From positions 31,775 through 95,774 of the forward strand of contig JAEUMR010000085.1 in assembly GCA_016791385.1 (NCBI GenBank): a stretch of DNA of 64,000 bases, read 5' to 3'. Below, in pieces: positions 1,027 to 5,270 of this stretch (the first letter of the stretch is position 1; every line of letters begins with the position of its first letter). Origin of the DNA: Hyphomonadaceae bacterium. GTDB lineage: Bacteria; Pseudomonadota; Alphaproteobacteria; Caulobacterales; Aquidulcibacteraceae. The notes beneath the pieces are model-generated. The model saw only the letters and a program-made list of their open reading frames with translations, searched no databases and was not told the origin of the DNA. The position numbers and the translations under genes are program-made.

Positions 1027-1036
1027 GGTTCGGGGA

Positions 1037-1489
1037 TCGGGGCTCGGGGATCGGGATTGGGCGCGGCCATGCAGAGTCACCGGGAACTCGACGTTTGGAA
1101 GGTGTCGATGACGTTGGCGCGGGATGTCTATGCGCTTGCGCGGCTCATGCCGAAACAGGAAGAATTTCGGCTCACCGGCCAAATGTTGCGCGCAGCCGTC
1201 TCAATCGCGGCGAATATCGCCGAAGGACACGCCCGCGCCACGCGCAAGGATTATGCGCACTTTGTTAGCATCGCGAGAGGATCCGCAGCCGAACTTGAGA
1301 CGCTCGTGTTGCTTGCTCGGGACGCGGAGCTATTGTCCAGCGCGTCTGTGGAGGCCGTACTGCAAACGACAGAGCGCGTCGCCAAAATGCTGACACGGCT
1401 ACACGCCCGTCTCAAAGAACCCCCGCAAGATTGAACCCGACCACCGACAACCGACAACCGAACCCCCAATCCCGATCCCCGAGCCCCGA
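1037..1489 (+). mobile_element. IVS-like cassette: four-helix-bundle ORF between perfect 25-bp inverted repeats
   Basis: Bases 1037-1061 and 1465-1489 are exact reverse complements over 25 bases (core CTCGGGGATCGGGATTGGG in the left arm). Between them lies a single ORF of the 23S-rRNA-intervening-sequence (S23/IVP) four-helix-bundle family. The unit fills nearly the whole space between the upstream stop (1026) and the ppa start (1493). Short CCGACAA repeats flank the inner side of the right arm (1444-1460). In rRNA, intervening sequences of this family are closed by long stems cut by RNase III; the same layout here is outside rRNA. The repeats are seen directly; that the unit is or was mobile is inference. 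Confidence 0.7.
1069..1434 (+). CDS. Four-helix-bundle protein (23S rRNA intervening-sequence protein family)
   Basis: A 121-residue helical protein with the family hallmarks: an N-terminal ELDVWKVSMTLA segment, then LTGQMLRAAVSIAANIAEGHARATRKDYAHF, shown here as the parts SIAANIAEGHAR and KDYAHF, then SAAELETLVLLARDAELL. Members are found in rRNA intervening sequences and as free ORFs, and are related to the accessory protein bAvd of diversity-generating retroelements, which binds nucleic acid. No reverse transcriptase or variable repeat is seen nearby. A TTG at 1057 is in frame but falls inside the left inverted-repeat arm, so ATG 1069 is preferred. The biochemical function of free copies is unknown. 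Confidence 0.8.
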   Translation: MQSHRELDVWKVSMTLARDVYALARLMPKQEEFRLTGQMLRAAVSIAANIAEGHARATRKDYAHFVSIARGSAAELETLVLLARDAELLSSASVEAVLQTTERVAKMLTRLHARLKEPPQD

Positions 1490-2864: not shown

Positions 2865-4054
2865 TACGAGAACACCTCGAACAGGCCCGCCGCGCCCATG
2901 CCGCCACCGATGCACATGGTGACGACAGCGTACTTGGCCTTGCGGCGGCGCCCTTCCATCAGCACGTGGCCGGCCAGGCGCGCGCCAGTCATGCCGAACG
3001 GGTGGCCGATGGCGATCGAGCCGCCATTGACGTTGTACTTTTCCGGATCGATGCCGAGCTTGTCGCGGCTGTAGAGACACTGCGAAGCGAACGCTTCGTT
3101 GAGCTCCCAAAGGTCGATGTCGTCGACCTTGAGGCCCTGGCGCTGCAGCAGCCGCGGCACGGCGAACACCGGGCCAATGCCCATTTCGTCCGGCTCGCAG
3201 CCGGCGACGGCGAAGCCCTTGAACAAGCCCAGCGGCTCAAGCCCGCGCTTTTCCGCTTCCTTTTCGTCCATCAGCACCACAGCCGCGGCGCCATCCGAGA
3301 GCTGGCTGGCATTGCCGGCGGTGACGAAATTGCCGGGGCCGCGCACCGGCTCGAGCTTGGCGAGACCTTCGAGCGTGGTGTCGGCGCGATTGCACTCGTC
3401 CTTCGTCACCACGTAATCGACCAGGCTCTCTTCCTTGGTCTCCTTGTTGACGACCTTCATCTTGGTCGCCATCGGCACGATCTCGTCCTTGAAGATGCCG
3501 CTTGCCTGCGCCGCGGCGATGCGTTGCTGCGAGCGCAGCGAATATTCGTCCTGATATTCGCGGCTCACATTGTAACGCTTGGCGACGATGTCGGCGGTTT
3601 CGATCATCGTCATCCAAAGCTCGGGCTTGGTTTTCATAAGCTGCTCTTCGGTGAAGTGATGGCGGTTCATGTGCCCGCTCATCTGCACCAGAGAGATGGA
3701 TTCCACGCCCCCGCCGATGGCGGCCTTGGCGCCCTCATTGGTGATGTAGTGCGAAGCCTGCGCGATCGCCTGCAGGCCCGAGGAGCAGAAACGGTTGACC
3801 GTCGTGCCCGAGGTGGTCACCGGCAGACCGGCCCAGATCAGCGCTTGACGCGCCACGTTGTGGCCGGTCGCCCCTTCCGGGCCGCCGCAGCCGATCACGA
3901 CGTCTTCGATCTCCTCCGGCGCGATCTTCGCGCGCTGCACCGCGTGTTTGATCGCGTGGCCCGCCATCGCCGCGCCGTGGGTGTTGTTGAAGCCGCCGCG
4001 GCCAGACTTGGCCAGACCGGTGCGAGCGTAAGAGACGATGACTGCGCGACCCAT
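2864..4054 (-). CDS. Thiolase family protein (acetyl-CoA acyltransferase)
   Basis: A 396-residue thiolase of full length. The nucleophilic Cys90 lies in [15 protein letters not shown], the catalytic His in [14 protein letters not shown], and the second catalytic Cys in [14 protein letters not shown] near the C-terminus. It would carry out thiolytic cleavage of 3-ketoacyl-CoA or the reverse condensation of acyl-CoAs; chain-length preference cannot be read from the sequence. It is distinct from the fadA gene at 18745. It is first in a two-gene unit with the lipoprotein gene at 2259. A Shine-Dalgarno-like GGAGG stands just before ATG 4054. Confidence 0.92.
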
Positions 4055-4145
4055 TCCAATTCCTCCAAAAGTGCGCGCACCCTAGTGGCGCAAGCGCGCA
4101 CGCGAAAGCGCATCTCGCGGCGTCAATGACATCACGCCCGTGCTG

Positions 4146-5270
4146 TCAGGAGATCGCCTGGTTGTTGACGAGCCCGCCGCCGGGCGGCGCATCAGCAGGC
4201 GCTGCAGGCGCAGCTGCGGGCGGCTGACCGCCGCCCTGGGTGAAGATGCCCTTGCCGCGCTCCTGGATCCATTTGGCGATGTCCTCCGACATCACGCCCG
4301 CGACGATGCCGACCAGCGACACCGTGAACGGGTTGAGCATCGAGGACGTCGTCGCCTGCTGCACGCCAGAGCTGAGCGAGAAGCCGGCGATGGCGGCGTT
4401 GGCCAGCACATAGAATGCCAGCGCCGCGCACATGCCGAAGACAAGCCGCACCACGATCTCCGCCATCGTCACCGGGAGGGGGCGGTTGAGGTATGCTGGG
4501 AAGAGATAGAGCAGCGAGCCAAGCGCACCCATCAGCAGCACAAGACTGGTCGACAACAGCGACGGGTGGCCTTGCGCGAGGAACGCGCTGACGCCCATCG
4601 GGCTCATGCTGCGCAGTGCTTCCGCTTCGCCGCTGACGCGGTCGAACTGATCCGAGTTTGGCACGATCGCTGCTTCCAGCGCAAAGATGCGGCGATTGGC
4701 TTCCGCCACTTGGCCGTTGACCAGGCGCTGGCGCGCCACCAGGGCGCTGCGTTCGCCGTCATGTTCGTCGATCGCCTGCTCTTGCTCGGTGAGCTGCTGC
4801 ACTTGCGCACGCAATTGCGCCAGGCGCTGCTGATCCTGCGGCGAGAGCCCGCTGCGTGCGGCCAGCGAATTCACCCGCTGCGACAGAGCTTGCGCGCTGG
4901 TATCGGCGGCGGCGCTGGAAGCGGGCTGCAAATTGGCATTGCGCTCGATGTCGGCGATCTGGCCGACGATGGAGGCGCGCGCGTCATCGGCCGCCTGCGT
5001 CAGCGAACTGAGTTGGGTGTCGAGCGCTGCGAGCTGGGCGTTGAGGTCGATGAGTTCGCCGCGCGGCGCCGCTGTCTCGGTTTCGATCCGTTCGATCTGC
5101 GCGCTGGCGTTTTGCAGGTTCGCGAACGAGATCAGCCCGCCTGTCTGCGGCGAGATCTGCTGTACGCCGAACTGGAAGTCGCGGGCGCTGAACACGAGCG
5201 CGCCCAGCGCCAGCACGATCACCATCGCCAGCGTCAGCACCGCACCCACCATGAACTTGTAGATGGTCAT
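4146..5270 (-). CDS. Coiled-coil membrane protein of unknown function
   Basis: A 374-residue protein with one N-terminal transmembrane segment (KFMVGAVLTLAMVIVLALG, residues about 5-25), a long helical coiled coil rich in Gln, Ala and Leu (about 60-225), then a membrane region of three or four helices (about 240-350, including LLSTSLVLLMGALGSLLYLF and IVVRLVFGMCAALAFYVLA), and a Pro/Ala-rich tail. No enzymatic motif is seen. The architecture suggests a periplasmic coiled-coil arm held between membrane anchors, possibly an envelope organiser. It is monocistronic as far as can be seen. Function not recognised. Confidence 0.8.
   Translation of the reverse strand: MTIYKFMVGAVLTLAMVIVLALGALVFSARDFQFGVQQISPQTGGLISFANLQNASAQIERIETETAAPRGELIDLNAQLAALDTQLSSLTQAADDARASIVGQIADIERNANLQPASSAAADTSAQALSQRVNSLAARSGLSPQDQQRLAQLRAQVQQLTEQEQAIDEHDGERSALVARQRLVNGQVAEANRRIFALEAAIVPNSDQFDRVSGEAEALRSMSPMGVSAFLAQGHPSLLSTSLVLLMGALGSLLYLFPAYLNRPLPVTMAEIVVRLVFGMCAALAFYVLANAAIAGFSLSSGVQQATTSSMLNPFTVSLVGIVAGVMSEDIAKWIQERGKGIFTQGGGQPPAAAPAAPADAPPGGGLVNNQAIS

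Follow-up and report, generated by a model that had tools for sequence, protein, structure and literature searches.

Tandem repeats with a seven-nucleotide period have reportedly been published for cyanobacteria as STRR sequences (Mazel 1990; Vioque 1997), with no gene assigned to them. Heptamer repeats have also been described in intergenic regions of Nostoc (PMC2408588), as GGGNATC repeats read as quadruplex-forming in Xanthomonas and Nostoc (PMC4692102) and as TAACTGA repeats in the Beggiatoaceae (PMC4679880). Inverted heptamer pairs are given as 70 and 75 in two Xanthomonas genomes and as few in Nostoc (PMC4692102), and one inverted set is given for the Beggiatoaceae genome (PMC4679880). 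The terms 'helix bundle' and 'S23' are absent from the main texts of PMC4692102 and PMC4679880. Heptamers have already been noted at one intervening-sequence ORF: the intervening sequence (IVS) of Coxiella is described as carrying tandem GACAGAT heptamers ahead of its S23p ORF, with a stem that is cut by RNase III, a protein that is probably unexpressed and an ORF that is reported as decaying (PMC4990558). As cited in the same paper, the Xanthomonas PF05635 protein is a homopentamer of four-helix bundles (PMC4990558). REPIN/RAYT systems are described as combining several copies of a small intergenic hairpin, built of inverted repeats, with a low-copy gene that has these repeats on both sides (PMC3116915). 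Among the matches listed in the open-access literature, no general link between heptamer repeats and a PF05635 gene was found, although an earlier mention is possible.

The window, which is the whole stretch of 64,000 nt analysed here, contains an ORF of 121 amino acids at 1069..1434 on the plus strand. It matches the profiles of a four-helix-bundle protein, PF05635 (E = 7e-35, 119.9 bits, cut-off 33.8) and TIGR02436 (E = 4e-33, 113.8 bits, cut-off 24), and is located outside 23S rRNA, with a crotonase gene (184-1026) on one side and ppa (1493-2020) on the other. A repeat search returned an exact 25-bp inverted repeat around the ORF, with its left half at 1037..1061 (plus strand) and its right half at 1465..1489 (minus strand); the halves, of 25 nt each, are 100% complementary and are separated by 403 nt. 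Within 950-1549 no exact inverted repeat is longer, and 60 shuffles of this segment gave at most 12 nt; this confirms what an earlier sequence-only reading of this DNA had reported. The same reading had the unit closed by exact repeats. The complementarity of the arms stands, but the unique exact stem does not: each arm is a tandem array of a heptamer close to TCGGGGN, the two lying in inverted orientation to each other, and both arrays are imperfect and longer than the exact repeat. The left (5') arm at 1027..1061 (plus strand) is a G-rich array of approximately five units, identified from the sequence, the repeats and a lag-7 segment score of 14.5, and reads in sevens GG TTCGGGG ATCGGGG CTCGGGG ATCGGGA TTGG G. 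The right (3') arm at approximately 1435..1489 (minus strand; lag-7 segment score 21) is an inverted array of the heptamer family of the left arm with approximately 7.5 units, and reads inwards TCGGGGC TCGGGGA TCGGGAT TGGGGGT TCGGTTG TCGGTTG TCGGTGG TCGG. The exact 25-bp repeat is the best-matching stretch of these two arrays. Folded as RNA, the unit has a predicted energy of -197 kcal/mol (z = -2.49), with 2/100 shuffles equally or more stable, which supports the proposal of the sequence-only reading that a transcript could form a long stem-loop.

No Rfam family matched anywhere in the 64,000-nt window, and a known defence system was rejected on zero matches of the unit to the PADLOC profiles at E 0.1. 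With the published heptamer repeats of Xanthomonas, Nostoc, the Beggiatoaceae and the STRR type, the locus shares a period of seven and a mostly intergenic location; the window and the other PF05635 loci show the STRR-like feature of tandem 7-nt repeats in intergenic DNA. The chance is about even, in our view, that the window unit belongs to a two-part selfish hairpin element with a REPIN/RAYT-like logic, of which it is the form with the gene and in which the protein recognizes the heptamer arms.

The free-standing PF05635 ORFs are under purifying selection. In nine pairs of ORFs at the same sites, divergence at codon positions 1, 2 and 3 was 0.15-0.26, 0.07-0.18 and 0.48-0.68, respectively; broken copies of PF05635 occur too. 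The solved relatives 2gsc and 2rld have five chains each. Judged by sequence, Avd of the diversity-generating retroelements is a distant relative of the window protein (phrog_3206, E = 7e-7; NF033474, E = 7e-4, below the cut-off). The PF05635 protein has no recognized catalytic function, which counts against the reading as an element. Phage cargo and plasmid cargo were considered and rejected, with tblastn matches at E 1e-5 in 0/50,697 phage records and 23/72,556 plasmids. A pattern search of IMG/VR returned 11 loci.

Kinship with rRNA intervening sequences, claimed in the sequence-only reading, is borne out by one genome (G278), where each of the two 23S genes has an insertion encoding PF05635 between inverted heptamer arms like those of the window unit; two further PF05635 genes of this genome lie outside rRNA. 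The 23S IVS with its S23p ORF and the window unit share the PF05635 family, a stem-loop plan in which the loop holds the ORF, and complementary arms that are able to pair. It is nevertheless quite improbable that the unit is an intervening-sequence cassette at the RNA level only, in which RNase III would cut the hairpin and spreading would play no part; the sequence-only reading had suggested an RNA-processed cassette as one of two possibilities, the other being a mobile one. The protein family and the stem-loop plan are those of rRNA intervening sequences, and RNase III is reported to cleave the stem of the Coxiella IVS (PMC4990558), but nearly all units lie outside rRNA (among the loci compared, only L182 and L183 match 23S), ORF-less companions exist and the protein is conserved. 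The companions also distinguish the free-standing units from the 23S IVS. The window unit differs from the Coxiella IVS in its location between protein genes and in its ORF, which is under purifying selection, whereas an ORF in decay has been reported for Coxiella (PMC4990558). Two candidates for recent duplication were rejected: in G278 the identical pair of copies comes from its two 23S genes, and two plasmid copies in Calothrix sit in near-identical gene orders, so neither case shows movement of a unit. Near-identical units at two unrelated sites were not found within any one genome, and this also counts against the reading as an element.

The breadth of the arrangement was assessed at 139 PF05635 loci from many phyla, comprising 30 from the GTDB family to which the window belongs (best loci only; matches in 22/60 genomes), 29 from its phylum (best loci only; matches in 52/299 genomes) and the best 80 of 556 confirmed loci from a named set. 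A separate set of 20 PF05635 loci was kept outside the 139. A 7-nt array was present upstream at 83/139 loci, downstream at 88/139, on both sides at 65/139 and on either side at 106/139; three loci are duplicates, and the corresponding counts for the 136 distinct loci are 82, 86, 64 and 104. Lags of 5, 6, 8, 9, 10 and 11 gave 0-2 of 139 per side, and 11/526 control windows in the same 139 loci were positive at lag 7. The array was found in 34/45 protein clusters at 60% identity and in 15/20 taxon groups defined by record title (80 named loci); the array-positive groups include one contig of an archaeal MAG, possibly a contaminant. Loci below the array threshold were two from Kaiserbacteria, three from unplaced phyla and one each from Zipacnadia, Nitrospirae and the gammaproteobacteria. 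As background, 1.6 Mb sampled at intervals from five genomes contained four arrays, all in the PF05635-bearing G278. A 400-kb sample of the PF05635-bearing G033 contained none, which counts against a spreading element. A very long array of approximately 31 heptamers lies in the downstream flank of the PF05635 gene of Candidatus Viridilinea mediisalina (L127), and at another locus (L188; G183:C331) two PF05635 matches, at 2247-2549 and 3838-4146, are approximately 1.3 kb apart.

The two arms of a unit match each other. In 84 two-arm units the similarity of opposite arms compared in inverted orientation was 0.814, against 0.549 when arms were swapped between units and 0.437 for opposite arms in direct orientation, and 60/84 units lay above the 95th percentile of the swapped arms. 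The median arm length was 4.6 heptamers. After rotation, the common logo of 120 units contained 4.50 bits, compared with 3.25 (sd 0.05) for a column-permuted null, with an inward consensus of roughly TAGgnAn; the heptamer is specific to each unit. Heptamer distance rises with protein distance in a Mantel test on 112/120 array units, with kinship ignored (r = 0.365, or 0.355 with GC removed; maximum of 500 permutations 0.134), calculated for the 5,842 unit pairs without homologous flanks after 374 pairs with homologous flanks had been set aside. The heptamer thus changes from unit to unit, agrees between the arms of one unit and follows the sequence of the protein. Several heptamers and several proteins occur within one genome, G033 (L016, L038 and L200). 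The order of heptamer variants was mirrored between the arms in 0/39 testable units at p <= 0.05, in a test that is weak with so few heptamers; an exact palindrome kept by pairing was rejected as a general rule on this result, and the exact 25-bp match in the window is therefore not the rule.

These comparisons bear on the reading of the arrays as simple repeats, grown by replication slippage or G-quadruplexes, beside a gene that is there by chance. The heptamer repeats of Xanthomonas and Nostoc have been read as quadruplex-forming (PMC4692102), but the motif occurs in 31/120 units, a count on which the G-quadruplex was also rejected as a common function. Arrays at PF05635 genes are moreover far above background, and the arms are inverted with a unit-specific match, which makes an origin of this kind very improbable.

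In the assembly from which the window comes (G000; 2.65 Mb, 83% complete), the window ORF is the sole PF05635 match. One similar ORF-less copy was found besides the window unit, at C18:1669-1815, where similar inverted arrays enclose 55 nt without a PF05635 ORF. The copy count raised by the sequence-only reading is therefore single for the ORF, with similar arms recurring in one hairpin. The gene downstream of this hairpin is presumably aminopeptidase-like, and approximately 1.5 kb from the hairpin lies what we take to be a fragment of a RAYT/IS200-type transposase (L006, G000:C18, 3346-3645, minus strand). G000 also holds three arrays of the TRTCRGG type (C24:22921, C70:125 and C72:47461); no ORF unit of this type was found there.

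ORF-less hairpins are more numerous in G033. A search for CARTMGG x3 with one mismatch gave 32 matches in this genome, and the reversed control gave 0 in all 60 genomes. The 32 matches form nine places, namely eight ORF-less hairpins with short loops and one ORF unit of the same type, which is the likeness to REPIN/RAYT (PMC3116915). The loops look unrelated to one another by eye, so the ORF-less hairpins are probably not simple deletion copies; bearing on a MITE with shared internal sequence are these differing loops of G033 and one ORF remnant in G048. Three heptamer types were then compared across the genus, with kinship ignored throughout. Genomes with an ORF unit of the CARTMGG type had 32, 21, 4, 31, 28 and 16 matches, against a median of 1 in the 24 others of the genus (p = 0.0023); for GARTRGY the counts were 5, 4 and 19 against a median of 0 in 27 others (p = 0.021), and for TRTCRGG 5, 4, 2, 9 and 7 against a median of 0 in 25 others (p = 0.0022). 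One of the five TRTCRGG ORF units, in G040, is a broken copy. For GARTRGY and TRTCRGG the genomes expected to be rich had been written down before the search, whereas CARTMGG was typed after the counts had been seen; the unit's own matches were subtracted for TRTCRGG and in 2/3 genomes for GARTRGY, but not for CARTMGG. At least five matches of the three types were present in 19/22 PF05635-positive and 6/38 PF05635-negative family genomes (kinship ignored), and the genus medians were 17 in 17 positive and 4 in 13 negative genomes (p = 0.006, kinship ignored). Exceptions are the negative genomes G031, G039, G047, G049, G052 and G058 with at least five matches, and the PF05635-bearing G034, G019 and G000 (the genome of the window) with fewer than five. 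G042 (45 matches) and G048 (31) are also rich in CARTMGG, and G043 (20) and G049 (30) in GARTRGY; no ORF unit of the respective type was seen in them. With these exceptions, the enrichment of ORF-less arms where the ORF form of the same type is present points to miniature companions. The sequence-only reading had held that arms occurring widely without the ORF would speak against it; this is half the case, as ORF-less hairpins exist yet are enriched beside the ORF form of their type.

The hairpins might instead be REPINs moved by RAYT transposases, with the PF05635 gene as a passenger. The presumed RAYT-like ORF lies near the ORF-less hairpin of the window's own genome, as such a reading would have it. 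Inverted intergenic doublets with variable loops also resemble REPINs (PMC3116915). This is improbable given that period-7 arrays accompany PF05635 genes across phyla and that the heptamer tracks the PF05635 protein. The system proposed here would differ from REPIN/RAYT (PMC3116915) in that its arms are tandem heptamer arrays, its gene is PF05635 and not a tyrosine transposase, and its movement is putative.

Orthologous sites were compared across the genus. After 7/30 crotonase/ppa loci had been dropped (five with a single anchor, one overlap artefact and one from another genus), 23 genomes with both anchors remained, of which four have the ORF with arms, two have ORF-less hairpins with other heptamers (G036 and G042) and 17 are without heptamer arms by eye; in G057, one of the four, the profile covers positions 1-91 only. 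The sequence-only reading had named presence of the ORF beside ppa in all close relatives as a finding against it; the ORF is there in only 4/23 readable genomes. Its proposal of a small cassette with its own protein is supported, as is presence and absence among relatives. The displacement of the ppa ribosome-binding site, also proposed there, is plausible only: by eye no Shine-Dalgarno sequence precedes the ATG, but the spacers of the relatives are too variable to serve as proof. At least five of the 17 armless spacers contain other palindromes (L050, L052, L057, L059 and L062, in G039, G048, G052, G043 and G031, respectively), and such long palindromes in sister species make the spacer a hot spot for unrelated small repeats. 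In L048, L053 and L063 (G033, G058 and G054, respectively) the spacer, with 473-1362 nt, is a longer one that seems to hold other small coding sequences (that of L048 was read for 700/1362 nt).

At the aminopeptidase-like site, 29 genus genomes comprise one with an ORF unit (G042), one with an ORF remnant (G048), and three with ORF-less hairpins (G000, G050 and G037); in the other 24, among them G043 with another insert, no heptamer arms are visible by eye. In G045 the conserved TAAT is 19 nt from the ATG. A third spacer has two arms in four species (G033, G050, G046 and G048), with at least two heptamer types. After a gene that we take to be cold-shock-like, the relatives compared have a terminator and no arms by eye; the terminator of G033 has a different stem and is enclosed by arms. 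Orthologous sites are therefore full, ORF-less or armless in different species. No target-site duplication was evident by eye at the crotonase-ppa and aminopeptidase-like sites, where the spacers are short and variable.

The main rival, which we consider unlikely, is a regulator with its regulon: the protein would bind RNA hairpins, in its own mRNA and in those of other genes, and control stability or translation, and the hairpins would be kept because they are useful and not because they spread. The arms do lie on both sides of the ORF, the protein shows conservation, the hairpins adjoin stop and start codons at the sites read, the unit can fold strongly as RNA and the same-type co-occurrence fits a regulon too. 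Sister species, however, hold different heptamers or nothing at the same site, any given hairpin is kept by a minority of relatives, and one ORF copy lies inside 23S rRNA.

In the selfish two-part element that we prefer, the inverted arrays of approximately four to five heptamers would be the recognized ends. The PF05635 four-helix-bundle protein, as a five-chain ring, would bind the heptamer type of its own unit and, with a putative polymerase or recombinase partner, would spread or maintain hairpins of the same type, many of them gene-less. Heptamer binding, movement in trans and the partner enzyme are all part of what would be expected of such an element. Units and hairpins would come to rest between genes and occasionally within rRNA, locations that tolerate hairpins, and would later decay.

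The same arrangement and the gene-less repeats in distant bacteria suggest one widespread self-spreading element behind several unexplained repeats. More tentatively, and at somewhat less than even probability, this may be an unrecognized class of element across many phyla, in which the '23S rRNA intervening sequence protein' would read a seven-letter arm code and spread gene-less hairpins, with rRNA intervening sequences, cyanobacterial STRRs and the G-rich heptamers of Xanthomonas and Nostoc as its products. The unifying reading is limited by the inverted pairing itself, which has been reported as common in Xanthomonas but as infrequent in Nostoc, with a single case in the Beggiatoaceae genome. 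A direct prediction is that each PF05635 protein binds the heptamer beside its own gene. Three old puzzles, the function of the S23/IVP protein, the origin of rRNA intervening sequences and the tandem seven-base repeats of bacterial genomes, may be one. If so, PF05635 proteins and their arms would form a natural family in which protein and repeat are paired and specificity shifts, and REPIN-like logic would here rest on a protein unrelated to that of REPINs.
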